Below are positions 2,420 to 33,348 of a DNA stretch of 64,000 nt, piece by piece. Both the position numbers and the translations under genes were made by a program. The DNA comes from Lacrimispora amygdalina (GTDB taxonomy: Bacteria; Bacillota; Clostridia; Lachnospirales; Lachnospiraceae). Position 1 is the stretch's first letter. Every line of letters starts with the position of its first letter. The stretch is from the NCBI RefSeq assembly GCF_003432035.1, contig NZ_QOHO01000032.1, forward strand, positions 1 through 64,000. The letters are read 5' to 3'. The notes under the pieces are model-generated. The model saw nothing but the letters and a program-made list of their open reading frames with translations. It ran no database searches and was not told the DNA's origin.

Positions 2420-3759
2420 CTGTCTCTCTCCTGTAGTAATTCATTTCTGTTCTTAAACCAAATATAATAAGGTACTTCTGCAAAAAGCATGCAGGCCCAG
2501 CCAATCAGGCTGGCATATGCAACCCCCTTCAGTCCCATTACAGGAACGAAAAGTGATACAAATACCACCCGCACAGAGATCTGGATCAGTGTGGAAATCA
2601 GCGTAATGGACATATTTCCCATTCCCCTGAAGAACCCCTGAATTCCATTGGTAAATGCAGGCATGAGGTAGAAAAAAGCCATCAGCCCCAGATATTTTAC
2701 TCCGATTTCCACCATTCCCGTATCGTTAACAGATACGAACAGCTTCATAACAGGCTCTTTTATAACGAGAATTAAAATGCAGATGAAAACCCAGTATCCT
2801 GCCTCAATCATTAGTCCTGTGTGAAATCCCCTCTTTATGCGGCTGCTGTTTTTAGCTCCCCTGTTCTGGGCCACAAAGGTCATGATCCCGCTGGAAATGC
2901 TCTGCTCCGGCGTAAACGCAAAATCATCAACCCTGTTTACTGCATTAAACGCTGCAATGGTGCTGACACCAAGGGGATTAATCATTCCCTGTATCAGCAG
3001 CTTCCCGATTGGCTGGCAGGACTGCTGCAGCGCTGTAATGGCCCCCTGTCTTAAAGTCAGATTTAAAAGATCCCGGTCCAGCCGAATTTCGTTCCTGCCC
3101 ACCCTGAGAAGGGGGACCCTTTTATATATGTAAAGAATACAAAGCCCGGCAGATACTGCCTCTGCAATATCCGTGGCAAGAGCCGCTCCTATAACATCCA
3201 TTTGAAACCATGCCACAAAAACCACATCAAGCAGTCCATTTAACACAGACGCCACGGCCAGGAACCGTACCGGAGTTTTAGAATCTCCAACACTTCTCAG
3301 TGCAGATGCCACTGCATTATAAAAAAATGTAAAAGGCATTCCCAAAAAAATGATCCGCAGATACATGGCTGCATCCTCTAAAATCTGGTCCGGAACCCGG
3401 AGCAGCCTTAAGATTCCCCTGGAAGAAATAAATCCCAGCGCAGCAATGATAAAGGAAAAGAAGCTTCCAAAGAGAAGTACCGTTGAGACCTCCTCCTTTA
3501 GTCTTTTTTCATCGCCTGCTCCAAAGAATTCGCTCATCAACACCGATGCCCCGATACAGATTCCTGTAATTCCTAAAATTACAATGCTCATAACGGGGTT
3601 TGCAGTCCCCACTGCAGCCAGAGCATCCTCTCCTGCAAAACGCCCCACAATAATGGAGTCCACCGCATTGTAAGTCAGCTGAAATAAATTACCCAGAACC
3701 AGAGGAATGGAAAAACGGATCAGCTGGGAGGAAATATTGCCTTTTGTCATGTCTTTCAT
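2416..3759 (-). CDS. MATE-family multidrug/Na+ antiporter
   Basis: Polytopic inner-membrane exporter of 447 aa with about 12 hydrophobic segments in two related halves. The N terminus (MTKGNISSQLIRFSIPLVLG) and the following LTYNAVDSIIVGRFAG are typical of the DinF/VmrA branch of MATE. It probably exports cationic drugs or metabolites in exchange for Na+ or H+. The start is the ATG at 3759, about 8 nt after AGGAAGGG; a TTG one codon upstream is less likely. It is cotranscribed with the HAD phosphatase, whose start overlaps its stop. The substrate cannot be read from the sequence. Confidence 0.9.
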   Translation of the reverse strand: MKDMTKGNISSQLIRFSIPLVLGNLFQLTYNAVDSIIVGRFAGEDALAAVGTANPVMSIVILGITGICIGASVLMSEFFGAGDEKRLKEEVSTVLLFGSFFSFIIAALGFISSRGILRLLRVPDQILEDAAMYLRIIFLGMPFTFFYNAVASALRSVGDSKTPVRFLAVASVLNGLLDVVFVAWFQMDVIGAALATDIAEAVSAGLCILYIYKRVPLLRVGRNEIRLDRDLLNLTLRQGAITALQQSCQPIGKLLIQGMINPLGVSTIAAFNAVNRVDDFAFTPEQSISSGIMTFVAQNRGAKNSSRIKRGFHTGLMIEAGYWVFICILILVIKEPVMKLFVSVNDTGMVEIGVKYLGLMAFFYLMPAFTNGIQGFFRGMGNMSITLISTLIQISVRVVFVSLFVPVMGLKGVAYASLIGWACMLFAEVPYYIWFKNRNELLQERDR

Positions 3760-25339: not shown

Positions 25340-25644
25340 ACAGACAAAAAAATAAGCCCCAAGCTATGCTTAGGGCGAATTAACGTGTCCGCGGTACCAC
25401 CTAAATTCAGAAATGATTTTCTGCTCTCAATACAATACGGGAAGACGAAAAATCTCTTCCGATATCGCTTCCCCTGATAACGGTGGGAATCTCCGTTGGA
25501 GTCTACTGGGATCATATCCGTTCAATCCAAAGCTCAAAGGCTACTTCCATGCTCCCATCACGAAGATTTTCACCAGCCATCTTCTCTCTGTCCATCCGGA
25601 ATCGCATGTACTCCTCCTCGTCAACGCTTTTGTCTGTGTTTGTT
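25340..25644 (-). promoter_or_regulatory. T-box leader of valS (specifier GUA)
   Basis: tRNA-sensing riboswitch. The T-box core AGGTGGTACCGCGG is at 25389-25402 on the minus strand, followed by a terminator (GCCC-AAGC/GCTT-GGGC stem at about 25355-25376, then a seven-base T run). Stem I begins with GAGGAGTAC, and its 3' side carries GAA-GTA-G with the valine codon GTA at 25542-25544. Uncharged tRNA-Val would stabilise the antiterminator and switch the gene on. The agreement between specifier and gene product supports both calls. Confidence 0.93.
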
Positions 25645-27607: not shown

Positions 27608-27886
27608 TTATACTTCTAAAAGATAATTATTTTCCTCATTTGCATGCTCCAACGTTCTGATCTCGAATGTCTTGCATCCTGATAAAATAAACGGATCTGC
27701 CTTGGCAATATCAGTGGCTTCTTCCAGATTCTCAGCCAGAAAAATAACCATTCCTCCGGGATAGTCGGTGAACGGTCCGCAGAGTACGAGTTTTCCCTGG
27801 CTTTTCAGACTTTTCAAATACTCTACGTGTCTCTTAATAAGTTCTTCATTGAGAGGTTTTTCGTTTTTCATTAAATAAACATACAT
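27608..27886 (-). CDS. YciI-like dimeric alpha-beta barrel protein
   Basis: Small cytosolic protein of 92 aa. HVEYLKSLKSQGKLVLCGPF and GGMVIFLAENLEEA, then DPFILSG, match the YciI family pattern, including the conserved His near the N terminus and Asp-Pro-Phe. The function of the family is unclear; it may be an enzyme acting on small molecules. ATG 27886 follows AAAGGAGAT; the longer frame upstream only overlaps the preceding GNAT gene. It is probably cotranscribed with that gene, which ends 16 bp upstream. Confidence 0.82.
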   Translation of the reverse strand: MYVYLMKNEKPLNEELIKRHVEYLKSLKSQGKLVLCGPFTDYPGGMVIFLAENLEEATDIAKADPFILSGCKTFEIRTLEHANEENNYLLEV

Positions 27887-27902
27887 GGTTCCATCTCCTT
27901 TA

Positions 27903-28361
27903 TTATGTCCGCTCCATAACAAAGTGCGCAAGCCGAACGTTTCCATCAATCTGACTTCCATCAATTTTAAATCCGCATTTTTTTGTATAGAAACTAACAT
28001 TCTCTTCTTTATCTATCGGTGTAATTAAGGTAATCTTATTCCAGTCCGGATGACTGTCCAGCATATAATCAATTGCCTGAGTACCAATCCCCTTTCCCTG
28101 GTATTGAGGCATAATACAAAGACAGCCAAGATAATATTCTCCGTTTCCCTTATCTTCTACAGAAATGACACCAACCGCAGAACCTTCATAACAGATAATA
28201 TCCTTAGGGAATTTTTCCAGAGATTTTTCCATACGTTCTCTGGTTCTTCCGTAAGCTGGACATTCCCCATATCTGATATAATCGTCATAAAATGCCGCAT
28301 TATAAATCTGAACTAACAAATCAGCATCTTCTTTTTGTGCTTTCCTATATGATATATTCAT
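27903..28361 (-). CDS. GNAT-family N-acetyltransferase
   Basis: Single-domain acetyltransferase of 152 aa. The acetyl-CoA loop is LGCLCIMPQYQGKGIGTQAI (motif A, Q-x-x-G-x-G), and NVSFYTKKCGFKIDG is the C-terminal hallmark. The start ATG 28361 follows AAAGGA. It lies between the ATPase gene upstream and the YciI gene downstream on the same strand. The substrate is unknown. Confidence 0.85.
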   Translation of the reverse strand: MNISYRKAQKEDADLLVQIYNAAFYDDYIRYGECPAYGRTRERMEKSLEKFPKDIICYEGSAVGVISVEDKGNGEYYLGCLCIMPQYQGKGIGTQAIDYMLDSHPDWNKITLITPIDKEENVSFYTKKCGFKIDGSQIDGNVRLAHFVMERT

Positions 28362-28403
28362 AACAATCCTTTCAAGCATAATTTTTATGTTATTGACCCT
28401 TTA

Positions 28404-29258
28404 TTAAAACTCTTTTTCATATTTTTTTAAAAATTGATAATAAGCCTGCACATTGGAAAGTTCAGTCCATTTTTTAATATCAACCGGATCCTCATCCATA
28501 TCGTAAATTTTTGCCCCCTTCATAGACAGCAGAAACGGGGAATGAGTTGCTATAACAAACTGGCAATGAAAGAACCGTGCCGAATCTTCTAAAAATTCCA
28601 ATAATTCCTGCTGCCGCCCCGGTGATAAGCTGTTCTCCGGCTCGTCCAGTAAATACAATCCATTTTCCTTAATCTTTTCACAAAAAAACAGATAAGCGCT
28701 CTCCCCATTGGAATGCTCCCTTACGTTTCCCATCAGGTTCTTTCTGATGTATCGGGACTGGGTATTTCTCCGGGACATGTTAACCTTCTTTAGCTGATCA
28801 TAGTCATCCAAAGATCTCATCTGAAAACTGGAATACTTTGAATCTAAGTATTCATCAAACAGTTCTTCCCGCTTTTGATGGATCCCCTCATTCAAAGACC
28901 TGATATTAAGCATGAAATCAAAGACATCGTCACTGGTTATAATCCGGCTGTCTCGTGTAACCGGCTCTTCCACTTCATAAGAACACAGATCCGTGTAGTC
29001 CTTAAAAAAATTGGACCGGTTGTAAAGGGCTTCCCGGGTAAGGCAAAGCTTCTCTGCAATCACGTTTAAAGCGGTTGTCTTCCCCGACCCATTGCCCCCA
29101 TATAAAATCGTAACCGGCTCAAAATCCAGCCTTGTTAAATGATTCTTTGACAGTATCTGAAATGGATAAAAGGTATCATAGCAAGTTCGTTTCTCTCCCA
29201 TTGTGAAGCTATATTCCACTTCTATATCAGGAAAAGAAAATTGTGATAAATAAATCAT
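28404..29258 (-). CDS. AAA/ABC-like ATPase (COG3910 type)
   Basis: Soluble ATPase of 284 aa of the RecF/OLD-like class. Walker A is LYGGNGSGKTTALNVIAEKL, Walker B is LYLLDEPENSLSPGRQQEL, and the switch is FVIATHSPFLLS. A short polar insertion lies between the Walker motifs in place of a long coiled coil. No partner nuclease, toxin or permease is adjacent, so a defence role cannot be supported. It stands in a run of GNAT genes on the same strand. Confidence 0.82.
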   Translation of the reverse strand: MIYLSQFSFPDIEVEYSFTMGEKRTCYDTFYPFQILSKNHLTRLDFEPVTILYGGNGSGKTTALNVIAEKLCLTREALYNRSNFFKDYTDLCSYEVEEPVTRDSRIITSDDVFDFMLNIRSLNEGIHQKREELFDEYLDSKYSSFQMRSLDDYDQLKKVNMSRRNTQSRYIRKNLMGNVREHSNGESAYLFFCEKIKENGLYLLDEPENSLSPGRQQELLEFLEDSARFFHCQFVIATHSPFLLSMKGAKIYDMDEDPVDIKKWTELSNVQAYYQFLKKYEKEF

Positions 29259-30305: not shown

Positions 30306-31316
30306 TTACCATTCTCCCCCTGTTTCATTCATTTTTGAAAAATGCCCCTGCTTTTTCTTGTTACTCTTCTTTCTTACAACAGCCTGCTGCCTGCTTTCTT
30401 TTGCTGCCTGAAACTTAGACTCCTTTTGGATTTTCCGGTAGTTTTTCCATCTTTTCTCTGTCAATGTACCATCTTCCATTGCCTGAGCTACTGCACACCC
30501 CGGTTCTCCGTTATGGGTACAGTTACTGAATCTGCACTGCATGATTAAATCATTGATGTCAGAAAAGCTGAAATCCATCCCATCGTCCACAATCCACATT
30601 CCCAGTTCCCGCATCCCCGGTGTATCAATAATCCTGGACCCATTATCCAATACAAACAGCTGACGGTGGGTAGTTGTATGATGTCCTTTTGAATCATCTT
30701 CTCTGATTTCTCCAGTTTTCATAAGTTCTCTTCCCAGCAGATAATTGGTGAATGTGGACTTTCCCACTCCAGATGATCCCAGGAACACAGTAGTCTTATC
30801 AGGCTCCAGATAGGGCTTTAGCTGCTCCATGCCTTCACCTGTCACTGCACTGACCATGCAGATATCCGTACCCATTGCAATCTGTTTTACAAGTTCCAGT
30901 TTTTCTTCCGTTTCTTCTGCAATGTCTGCTTTTGTGAGGACAATAACCGGCTGCCCACCGCTTTGCCACGAGGCGGTCAAATATCGCTCCAGCCGTTTTA
31001 AATTAAAATCATAGTTCAGAGACATTAAAATAAACACGTAATCAAAATTTACTGCGATAATCTGCTCCCCCATTCCCACATCCGGATCTTTCCTGGAAAA
31101 TGCAGATTTCCGTTCCAGTGTCTTTATAATCAGACAGTCACCCAGGGGATTATACTCCAATTCCACATTGTCACCAATCGTCGGGAATTCTTCCTCGCAT
31201 TGATCGATAAAATATATTCCCGCTTTTAATCTGGCATACAAATCTTCCCCATTTACTTTTACTTCATAACGTTCCCTGTGAACCGCGGTTATAAAACCTT
31301 TCATTCTTTCTTTCAA
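30306..31316 (-). CDS. rsgA: RsgA-type ribosome small-subunit GTPase
   Basis: Circularly permuted GTPase of 336 aa that checks maturation of the 30S subunit. An OB fold (KAGIYFIDQCEEEFPTIGDN) is followed by the permuted G domain with G4 VLTKAD, G1 GSSGVGKST, G3 DTPGMRELGM, and a C-terminal zinc finger (CRFSNCTHNGEPGC). The tail is basic (RKKSNKKKQG). TTG 31316 is chosen because AGAGAGG lies 7 nt upstream; ATG 31304 is possible. ATG 31349 has no ribosome binding site and lies in a hairpin loop. An attenuator-type leader precedes it and a GNAT gene is fused to it translationally. Confidence 0.92.
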   Translation of the reverse strand: MKERMKGFITAVHRERYEVKVNGEDLYARLKAGIYFIDQCEEEFPTIGDNVELEYNPLGDCLIIKTLERKSAFSRKDPDVGMGEQIIAVNFDYVFILMSLNYDFNLKRLERYLTASWQSGGQPVIVLTKADIAEETEEKLELVKQIAMGTDICMVSAVTGEGMEQLKPYLEPDKTTVFLGSSGVGKSTFTNYLLGRELMKTGEIREDDSKGHHTTTHRQLFVLDNGSRIIDTPGMRELGMWIVDDGMDFSFSDINDLIMQCRFSNCTHNGEPGCAVAQAMEDGTLTEKRWKNYRKIQKESKFQAAKESRQQAVVRKKSNKKKQGHFSKMNETGGEW

Positions 31317-31340
31317 AAAGCAACCTCTCTTCCATTTTTT

Positions 31341-31364
31341 CGTTGGCATATGAAATTGCCAACG
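31341..31364 (-). ncRNA. Hairpin just ahead of the rsgA start
   Basis: CGTTGGCA and TGCCAACG form a perfect 8-bp stem around an 8-nt loop, about 25 nt before the TTG start. It may affect translation initiation or be part of the leader fold. Confidence 0.5.
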
Positions 31365-31370
31365 GTTAAA

Positions 31371-31402
31371 AAGGGCATAAAAATGCCGCGGTAATAGCCC
31401 TT
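31371..31402 (-). terminator. Second terminator-like hairpin in the rsgA leader
   Basis: AAGGGC pairs with GCCCTT followed by TTT on the minus strand; an alternative inner stem GGCAT/ATGCC shares bases with it, so two exclusive folds are possible. Confidence 0.5.
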
Positions 31403-31436
31403 ATGGCTGTCACTGCGGTTTGCTTTCCAAAAAAAG

Positions 31437-31467
31437 GCACAAAAAAAACACATCTTATCGTGTGTTT
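31437..31467 (-). terminator. Intrinsic terminator (attenuator) in the rsgA leader
   Basis: On the minus strand AAACACA pairs with TGTGTTT, followed by an eight-base T run. Just upstream, TATCG and TTAAC can pair with GTTAA and CGATA that overlap the terminator arm, giving a candidate antiterminator. It lies 120 nt before the gene and inside its transcript. Confidence 0.75.
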
Positions 31468-31539
31468 AACAGAGTTAAGCGATATATAAGAGTCTACAGG
31501 CGGCATATTAAACATAATTGTCATATGCCCAATATTCAG

Positions 31540-31581
31540 TTATTCATTCATTACCTCTTTTACAAATAATACATCTGACAT
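31540..31581 (-). CDS. Leader peptide (upstream ORF) of the rsgA attenuator
   Basis: Short ORF MSDVLFVKEVMNE (13 codons, TAA stop) with AAAGGAGA upstream of the ATG. It begins about 57 nt after the predicted transcription start and ends 73 nt before the terminator. A GGCATAT/ATATGCC stem follows immediately after its stop. The layout fits ribosome-position sensing. There is no homology evidence, because of the length. Confidence 0.6.
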   Translation of the reverse strand: MSDVLFVKEVMNE

Positions 31582-31644
31582 ATCACATTCTCCTTTCAGG
31601 TCCGCTAATGGGTTATTTTGGTAATAACACTTCCAATTACAAAT

Positions 31645-31673
31645 AAGATAGCACATTTTTTCAGCAGCGTCAA
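31645..31673 (-). promoter_or_regulatory. Promoter of the rsgA leader transcript
   Basis: TTGACG (31668-31673) and TATCTT (31645-31650), 17 bp apart. The predicted start near 31638 gives a leader of about 320 nt, far longer than needed for translation. Confidence 0.7.
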
Positions 31674-31726: not shown

Positions 31727-32938
31727 TTACTTATTAATTTTTACAAATCTTTTTTTGCCAATCTTCATGACATCTCCGTTAAACAGGACATTATTTATTT
31801 CATCTTCATTCATTTTCTCACCATTGATCTGAATTCCACCTTGTCTTATCAGACGGATAAATTCACTTTTGCTTTTAATATATCCCAGTTCAATCAGACC
31901 GGGAATACTGTCATTTACCGTATCTTTCTCCAGATCCAAAAGCAATATGGGGATATCATCTGGAATTGTTTTTTTACTGAACGCCATATCATAGTAAGAA
32001 ATGGCGCTTTGCACCTCTTCCTCCTCGTGATAAAGCCCTGTAATAATTTTTGCTAATTGGAACTTAATGTCCCGCGGATTTGCTCTATTTGATAATTCCG
32101 CTTTTACCCTGTCAATTTCATCCGGATGTTCATCTGTTGCCAGCTCATAATATCTGATTATCAAATCATCCGGTACTTCCATCACCTTCTTAAACATAAC
32201 TTCTGCCGGCTCACTTACCCCGATATAGTTTCCTAAGCTTTTGCTCATTTTCTCCACACCATCGAGTCCTTCCAGAATTGGCATAAATAAAGCAATTTGC
32301 TGGTCGATCCCCATTGATTTCTGTAATGTGCGCCCCATCAAAATGTTAAAGGTCTGATCCGTTCCTCCTAATTCAATATCTGCTTTTATCTCCACTGAAT
32401 CATAAGCCTGCATGAGCGGGTAAAAAAATTCATGGATACCGATAGGAACACCATTCTTATAACGGTTTTGAAAATCATCCCGTTCCATCATTCTTGCAAC
32501 CGTCGACGTTGCAGCCAGCCGAATGACATCTTCAAAATTCAGCTTTGAAAGCCACTCACTGTTGAATCTTACGATTGTCTTCTCTTTGTCCAGTATTTTA
32601 AATATTTGTTCACAATAAGTCAGTGCATTTTCTTTTACCTTTTCATCACTTAATGCCACTCTTCCTTTGGATTTCCCTGTCGGATCCCCTATTTTCCCTG
32701 TAAAGTCCCCAATGATAATAACTGCCTGATGTCCCAGTTCCTGCATCTGCCTGATCTTTCTCAAAACTACAGCATGACCCAGATGAATATCCGGTGCGGA
32801 AGGATCAAGTCCTAACTTAATGATCAATGGTTCTTCCTGGTTATAAGATTTCTCCAGTTTGGCAAGCAGCTCCGCTTCATTGACGCACTGGTGAACCCCT
32901 TTGCAGATGATACGCATTTGTTCTTTCGGTGTTAACAT
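31727..32938 (-). CDS. tyrS: Tyrosyl-tRNA synthetase
   Basis: Class I synthetase of 403 aa that charges tRNA-Tyr. The HIGH-type motif is PDIHLGHAVVL and the KMSKS loop is KMSKSLGNYIG. GGTDQTFNILMGR is the tyrosine-binding region, and a C-terminal S4-like RNA-binding domain (IRQGGIQINGEKMNEDEINN) is present. The length and the GGTDQ spacing fit the TyrZ-like branch of Firmicutes rather than the 420-aa TyrS branch. A T-box leader with a UAC specifier lies upstream, so it is induced when tRNA-Tyr is uncharged. Confidence 0.94.
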   Translation of the reverse strand: MLTPKEQMRIICKGVHQCVNEAELLAKLEKSYNQEEPLIIKLGLDPSAPDIHLGHAVVLRKIRQMQELGHQAVIIIGDFTGKIGDPTGKSKGRVALSDEKVKENALTYCEQIFKILDKEKTIVRFNSEWLSKLNFEDVIRLAATSTVARMMERDDFQNRYKNGVPIGIHEFFYPLMQAYDSVEIKADIELGGTDQTFNILMGRTLQKSMGIDQQIALFMPILEGLDGVEKMSKSLGNYIGVSEPAEVMFKKVMEVPDDLIIRYYELATDEHPDEIDRVKAELSNRANPRDIKFQLAKIITGLYHEEEEVQSAISYYDMAFSKKTIPDDIPILLLDLEKDTVNDSIPGLIELGYIKSKSEFIRLIRQGGIQINGEKMNEDEINNVLFNGDVMKIGKKRFVKINK

Positions 32939-33023: not shown

Positions 33024-33348
33024 TAAAAAACTCCCGTCCTCCTGTTTCCAAAAGGACGAGAGTTACTCTCGTGTTACCACCTTAAGTTTATAGACAACTC
33101 ACATTGTCTACCTCATCGGGTACGGCCCTGGCGATACCCTTGCACCTGATTACGGTGTGCTCTCCGTCGCAGCCTACTTCTTAAATCGGTTCGGTGCGCA
33201 GCTCCAAGATGTATTCACACTTTCTATCCATGAGCCTCTCATCAACCGGCATCTTTCTGTTTGGAATTGAAAATGCTACTCTTTCTTTTCATAGCCTTTT
33301 CTTATACTCCGAATTATTTTATAATTCTTTGTAATGCAAATATTTAAT
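33024..33348 (-). promoter_or_regulatory. T-box leader of tyrS (specifier UAC)
   Basis: tRNA-sensing riboswitch. The T-box core AAGGTGGTAACACG is at 33070-33083 on the minus strand. The terminator is CTCTCGTCCT / AGGACGGGAG followed by a six-base T run (33024-33062). Stem I carries GAA-TAC-A with the tyrosine codon TAC at 33211-33213, matching the downstream gene. Confidence 0.93.

Follow-up and report, generated by a model that had tools for sequence, protein, structure and literature searches.

The window, a 64,000-nucleotide stretch from Lacrimispora amygdalina (positions 1 to 64,000 of contig NZ_QOHO01000032.1), contains on its minus strand a gene for an RsgA-family GTPase, here called rsgA2, which is preceded by a promoter and a long leader with a short upstream open reading frame (uORF) and followed by genes for a GNAT acetyltransferase and an AAA-type ATPase (Table 1). 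Membership of the rsgA2 product in the RsgA family is indicated by matches to PF03193 (9.1e-53) and TIGR00157 (above its cut-off) and by alignment to the solved RsgA 6h4d over the GTPase and Cys/His regions, including CRFSNCTHNGEPGC; the roles of its GTP-binding motifs and C-terminal Cys/His cluster are presumably those generally ascribed to RsgA. The start codon of rsgA2 is most likely TTG at 31316, with the Shine-Dalgarno (SD) sequence AGAGAGG, because the ATG at 31349 lies in a hairpin and the extension that it would give is unmatched in most relatives and has a stop in one.

RsgA is a 30S assembly factor, a housekeeping copy of which would be expected throughout the genus. Among 25 genus genomes, rsgA2 types were found in 11 and the other, housekeeping, RsgA type in 23, and the genome of the window encodes elsewhere a separate RsgA copy that is 32% identical to rsgA2. 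By these sequence comparisons the window gene is a second paralog distinct from the housekeeping rsgA, so that a role in stress becomes likelier than one in controlling ribosome assembly. The GNAT gene is joined to rsgA2 by TAAATG, as a sequence-only reading of this DNA had noted, and the AAA-type ATPase gene possibly belongs to the same operon. Downstream of the latter lie two overlapping minus-strand open reading frames (27608-28000 and 27903-28379), one of them encoding a GNAT, which are possibly a further part of the operon. The same strand also carries two T-box leaders that pass the Rfam gathering score (33049-33301 and 25368-25633), the former preceding the tyrS gene (31727-32938).

Table 1. 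Features of the rsgA2 locus in the window
Feature	Position	Strand	Basis or remark
Promoter TTGACG-17-TATCTT, TG before -10	31645..31673	-	motif scan; same hexamers in relatives by eye
Leader RNA, ~320 nt	31317..31640	-	transcription start inferred from -10
SD sequence AAAGGAG of uORF	31590..31596	-	sequence
uORF MSDVLFVKEVMNE*, 13 codons	31540..31581	-	intact in 9/9 genus relatives; Kineothrix (L051) counterpart MAKLIVNEVVAD
Internal SD-like sequence GAGGTAATG, just 5' of uORF stop codon	31549..31557	-	anti-SD matching
Hairpin P1, directly 3' of uORF	31502..31530	-	folding; hairpin here in class I relatives, with changes on both sides
Shared arm CTCTTATATATCGC	31479..31492	-	candidate pairing with uORF start region (31580-31586) or T1 loop (31453-31458)
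Hairpin P2, TTAAC/GTTAA	31466..31478	-	paired in 8/8 sequences, invariant; pair probability <=0.03
Terminator T1, AAACACA/TGTGTTT then T8	31441..31467	-	paired in 8/8 sequences, invariant
Second terminator-like hairpin T2, interrupted T tract	31379..31418	-	folding, relatives
Hairpin just 5' of rsgA2 ribosome-binding site	31341..31364	-	folding of window alone
rsgA2, second RsgA-family GTPase	30306..31316	-	TTG start preferred; ORF list gives ATG 31349
GNAT acetyltransferase, 329 aa	29316..30305	-	Pfam match in C-terminal part; ATG directly after rsgA2 stop
AAA-type ATPase	28404..29258	-	57-nt gap

The sequence-only reading had described the region upstream of rsgA2 as a promoter, a 320-nt leader, a 13-codon ORF with its own SD sequence, a stem right after its stop, an intrinsic terminator with eight U and a second terminator-like hairpin, and every one of these elements was found in place. 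A promoter of its own and an SD-led uORF, as in uORF-dependent transcription attenuators of the hflXr/vmlR kind, are both predicted here, and so are intrinsic terminators between the uORF and the gene, T1 and T2, which are conserved in relatives. T1 is weak, with two G-C pairs and -4.9 kcal/mol, and is absent from the output of the terminator scan, which demands three G-C pairs; the T2 hairpin (31418-31386, -15.7 kcal/mol) is followed by a broken T tract and is reported by the scan just in part (31387-31374). The RLR motif that is tied to macrolide leaders in the hflXr report (PMC6310831) was seen by eye neither in MSDVLFVKEVMNE nor in 39 peptides of the leader class to which the window belongs (class I, below). 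The Rfam 15 scan of the window leader gave sub-threshold matches and nothing above the gathering score, and that of six related loci gave one tRNA alone above it; in the loci tried, the conserved class I leader has no matching Rfam 15 family.

A DNA search of the 25 genus genomes found the leader in 10, including the window's own, with 88-90% identity in the nine others, and a protein search found rsgA2 at >=82% identity in exactly the same 10. Because the leader and its 13-codon SD-led ORF, unbroken in the nine relatives, are conserved, and because SD-led ORFs are rare before control genes (below), the leader elements are unlikely to have arisen by chance. An eleventh genome (G010), whose region was read only after these counts, encodes an rsgA2 of 52% identity behind what is by eye a class I leader, with the SD-led uORF MIKMVEVTVS, the motif AAGTAACCTTTTGTGGATTCT and two hairpins. 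Those close relatives that are named isolates belong to Lacrimispora and Kineothrix.

The antiterminator that had been proposed fared less well than the other elements. Its TATCG/CGATA half was rejected, the C-G pair being kept in just 4 of 8 sequences, and its TTAAC/GTTAA half, although present and paired throughout, is invariant and scarcely formed in equilibrium folding (P2 in Table 1). Equilibrium folding of the window leader predicts no switch: at every ribosome position tried, T1 stays formed (mean pair probability 0.76-0.88) and the antiterminator has a probability <0.01. For eight chosen leaders of the window group, RNAalifold predicted instead a TCTTAT/ATAAGA pairing, which is broken in none of the eight; a G-U change occurs once, and in one sequence two of the pairs fall in a gap. 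The helix at the uORF ribosome-binding site (RBS) breaks at four of seven pairs in one sequence of the Lacrimispora-Kineothrix group. Covariation, by which the leader was to be checked, was seen in part: the helices of the Lacrimispora-Kineothrix group, which is too similar, are without changes on both sides, whereas RNAalifold applied to 11 chosen class I leaders found the RBS-motif helix, P1 and T1, with both-side changes in 3 of 22 pairs.

Beyond the genus, a cut of E <= 1e-60, which may let in other RsgA types, gave relatives of rsgA2 in 44 of 299 genomes of the family and, at the level of the class, in 75 of 391 genomes, representing 51 of 222 genera. When a uORF was defined by an ATG, 8-24 codons and an SD energy of -10 kcal/mol or better, it was present in 61 of 106 rsgA2 upstream regions of >=100 nt versus 7 of 202 control genes located in the window or in 20 stretches of relatives; the former count excludes the window's own, duplicate and motif-search loci and retains near-duplicates such as L052/L069. 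After removal of nine Lacrimispora near-duplicates the uORF was present in 52 of 97 regions, and by the same fixed criterion 45 of the 106 lacked one. Grouped by eye, the rsgA2 leaders follow three designs, each with a uORF. Class I, of which the window leader is a derived form, begins with a uORF that is mostly 9-13 codons long; in many cases GAATA stands shortly past the uORF stop, and P1, the motif AACCTTTCGTGAATACT, T1 and, in many leaders, T2 come next. Class II has a uORF of ~21 codons ending like MMTSVxAF, followed by a terminator of the form ACCGTGGC/GCCACGGT, and class III has a uORF of 17-20 codons that ends ~50 nt upstream of the gene, membership of both being assigned by eye among the leaders listed. 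The uORF and the terminator, on whose conservation the sequence-only reading had made its proposal depend, are both kept in relatives, T1 being paired in all eight sequences aligned. Sequence comparison gives good support to a predicted uORF attenuator that precedes the gene of an RsgA-family GTPase and the GNAT gene abutting it. What did not stand of the earlier proposal is the antiterminator in the form given.

In the window, the shared arm CTCTTATATATCGC occupies the position, placed by eye, at which class I relatives carry AACCTTTCGTGAATACT. In 22 of 32 class I leaders (36 minus four without the motif), the motif scores with the top pairing partners of the uORF SD region. This test is partly circular, as the search pattern contains CCTTTC or CTTCTTTCG, complementary to the SD, and it scored another site in L021 and L079; in the window itself the strongest partner of the uORF start is 6 nt off the scored place (rank 0.14). 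Complementarity of the motif extends to the T1 loop, with -6.19 kcal/mol versus -5.47 for swapped partners (p 0.0055, n=26 of 37 leaders, doubtful T1 hairpins being taken for L016 and L077) and -3.97 for shuffled loops. As the motif can pair with the uORF SD region and, above swaps, with the T1 loop, and as TCTTAT/ATAAGA is the predicted pairing in the window group, the data suggest an arm with two alternative partners, the uORF start and the T1 loop, of which it would close one at a time. In equilibrium folding that includes the same doubtful T1 hairpins, a ribosome at the uORF start lowered T1 by >0.1 in 7 of 25 class I leaders and raised it as much in two. A long-range GGGCAT/ATGCCC stem closing the terminator, attractive in some leaders, was dropped as a general feature after a swap test on the 25 leaders with a usable segment (p 0.10).

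The class I motif with <=1 mismatch occurs at 10 sites in 381 Clostridia genomes, versus four for the reversed control pattern, and nine of the 10 are at rsgA2 hits, the remaining one being by eye inside a reading frame. In an earlier search of 299 genomes, a slightly mis-specified pattern with 1 mismatch matched at 11 sites and its reversed control at 24; five of the 11 are at rsgA2 and the other six are by eye without such a leader, so that use of the motif by other genes was rejected. A mobile or phage origin of the leader was likewise rejected, as its DNA matched nothing in plasmids or phages and viral contigs lacked an exact copy of the 17-base motif. Protein relatives of rsgA2, with RsgA types pooled, occur in 129 plasmid records at 1e-40, all below 60% identity, and in 25 phage records.

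Class III is mechanistically the clearest of the three leader classes. The 3' end of its uORF pairs with a CCTCC segment at -20.1 kcal/mol versus -14.7 for swapped partners, and none of 20,000 permutations was as good (n=16 of the 17 leaders tried; L135 was lost, its SD not being located), while pairing of the CCTCC segment with the SD of the gene did not differ significantly from swaps (-10.8 versus -10.1, p 0.06). This layout looks like a translation attenuator, as far as base pairing can tell. In a Listeria monocytogenes record (L155:2340-2432), the class III uORF MAIVKMENLIINTGVFYL precedes the rsgA gene adjoining pnp, and GCTCC/GGAGC can cover the SD of that rsgA gene.

The neighbourhood of rsgA2 varies among lineages. 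Tight coupling, defined as an ORF of >=80 aa that starts <=10 nt from the rsgA2 stop or overlaps it, was seen at 18 of the 67 rsgA2 loci listed, in 11 lineages, or 12 with G010 (locus L212); the other 49 loci listed lack such a neighbour, some for want of DNA. GNAT neighbours occur in eight lineages (the window, L025, L028, L075, L076, L079 and L090 by Pfam and L051 by eye), that of L025 being 48% identical to the window GNAT. The remainder include APH-type kinases (L026 and L212, the latter gene beginning 2 nt after the rsgA2 stop), a methyltransferase (L021) and, by eye, a HAD-phosphatase-like protein (L038). Because GNATs are common and the count stands without a control rate, the coupling of GNAT and rsgA2 genes is suggestive only. 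At L051 (Kineothrix alysoides), the GNAT after rsgA2 is split into two frames (from 4027) and a second GNAT follows that is by eye of the fusion type. GNAT-RsgA fusions of ~530 aa are found behind class II-like uORF leaders: one, in Roseburia sp. 831b (L156:1886-3466), is confirmed by Pfam and lies on a 243-kb plasmid, and similar ones were seen by eye at L034 and L040. At L025, a gene with an EF-Tu-type GTP-binding domain, by eye ribosome-protection-like, begins at 3655, ~200 nt past rsgA2-GNAT.

Comparison of sequences supports the promoter, the SD-led uORF and the terminators, as well as the conservation of these elements and their association with rsgA2; an attenuator is likely, whereas its antiterminator is unproven. 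We consider it probable that the leader is a uORF-based transcription attenuator of the accessory operon rsgA2-GNAT, which would be off under normal uORF translation and read through by RNA polymerase when the loading of ribosomes onto the uORF, their movement along it or their departure from it fails. The segment after P1 would normally pair with the uORF ribosome-binding site, so that few ribosomes translate each transcript, while a ribosome held on the uORF would free this segment to pair with the T1 loop and delay the terminator. In trpL of Escherichia coli, a downstream segment closes the ribosome-binding site of the leader ORF in the same manner and keeps ribosomes per transcript few, although trpL senses tryptophan and is unrelated in sequence. 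The inducer would be impaired translation, most plausibly ribosome-acting drugs or stresses, and rsgA2 is probably switched on just when protein synthesis is disturbed; the operon products may serve to protect the 30S subunit, to repair it or to inactivate a drug.

The uORF could instead act as a sensor of termination or recycling, in which the SD-like sequence holds a ribosome or post-termination 30S subunit whose departure time sets read-through, giving feedback for a 30S-acting GTPase. An SD-like match ending 6-8 nt 5' of the stop was found in 34 of 36 class I uORFs, chosen partly by eye (L083, L012 and L020 being dropped from 39), versus 14-15% of 368 control ORF ends. With automatic choice of uORFs it was found in 40 of 52 rsgA2 uORFs, a set without the nine Lacrimispora near-duplicates that keeps L052/L069, versus 10 of 47 null uORFs, among which the window uORF is itself counted (Fisher p 3e-8). 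By the SD-to-A-site spacing rule, a match so placed would hold the ribosome with its A site approximately on the stop codon. However, the GGAGG of class III is required for anti-SD pairing, so that SD likeness may be a by-product, and a ribosome at the uORF stop lowered T1 in just one of 25 class I leaders in equilibrium folding. What the SD-like sequence senses may be termination or recycling, and in class III it may instead just reflect RNA pairing; we regard the sensor as rather unlikely. A broader and still more speculative version, which we also hold to be unlikely, is that rsgA2 represents a ribosome-stress operon widespread in Clostridia and some Bacilli, in which at least two leader designs would grip the ribosome by an SD-like sequence with the stop codon in the A site, sense stalled termination or an unrecycled 30S subunit and turn on a GTPase acting on the 30S subunit, in many cases along with an enzyme that modifies drugs or ribosomes.

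Folding without a clear switch and the weakness of T1 would also be compatible with a constitutive leader, in which the translated uORF sets a low, unregulated level and the hairpins are ordinary terminators or stabilisers. We find this quite improbable, as the recurrence on one gene family of three designs, each with a uORF, is a convergence that such a leader would not lead one to expect, and as the class I motif so nearly always precedes rsgA2. The T-box before the neighbouring tyrS attests to amino-acid control in the region, yet an attenuator in which uORF codons sense charged tRNA is highly improbable, since the uORF peptides vary widely, have no common single-residue run by eye and share a string of nucleotides, the SD-like sequence.

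No leader or uORF control of an RsgA gene was found among the open-access (PMC) papers listed, in agreement with the sequence-only reading, which knew of none for an RsgA-family GTPase; neither direct leader-attenuator control of an RsgA paralog nor the leader family itself was met with in that literature. RsgA is absent from the main text of PMC7927858, and the name lmo1332 from all the papers covered. That an RsgA paralog responds to a drug is already reported for Streptomyces coelicolor, where one member of the RsgA/EngC paralog pair SCO6149/SCO5211 is WblC- and tetracycline-dependent and the WblC regulon also contains GNATs, HflX and TetM (PMC7157823). The likeness is at the level of the RsgA/EngC family, the phylum is another, and control is by a transcription factor, with no leader attenuator described in the available part of that report (PMC7157823). 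The vmlR leader of Bacillus subtilis, like that of rsgA2, belongs to a chromosomal, ribosome-targeted factor of the Bacillota, in this case a resistance factor under transcription and translation attenuation, although its target is an ABC-F ATPase and the likeness is one of the described mode of control (PMC9226507). A further parallel, together with the WblC regulon among the nearest, is hflXr (lmo0762)/rli80 of Listeria monocytogenes, in which a homolog of a ribosome-acting GTPase, a further homolog of which is encoded in the genome (lmo1296), is preceded by an attenuator with a 14-codon ORF and alternative folds (PMC6310831). In contrast to rsgA2, hflXr is of the ribosome-splitting HflX type and its ORF has RLR, and antibiotic induction and resistance were demonstrated there (PMC6310831), whereas for rsgA2 such a response is predicted from sequence. 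The many similar loci in Clostridia suggest an unrecognised ribosome-stress response, and an accessory paralog, its coupling to GNAT or APH genes in several lineages and its unlike uORF leaders together point to a role in stress or resistance that is inducible, aimed at the 30S subunit and comparable to that of HflXr.
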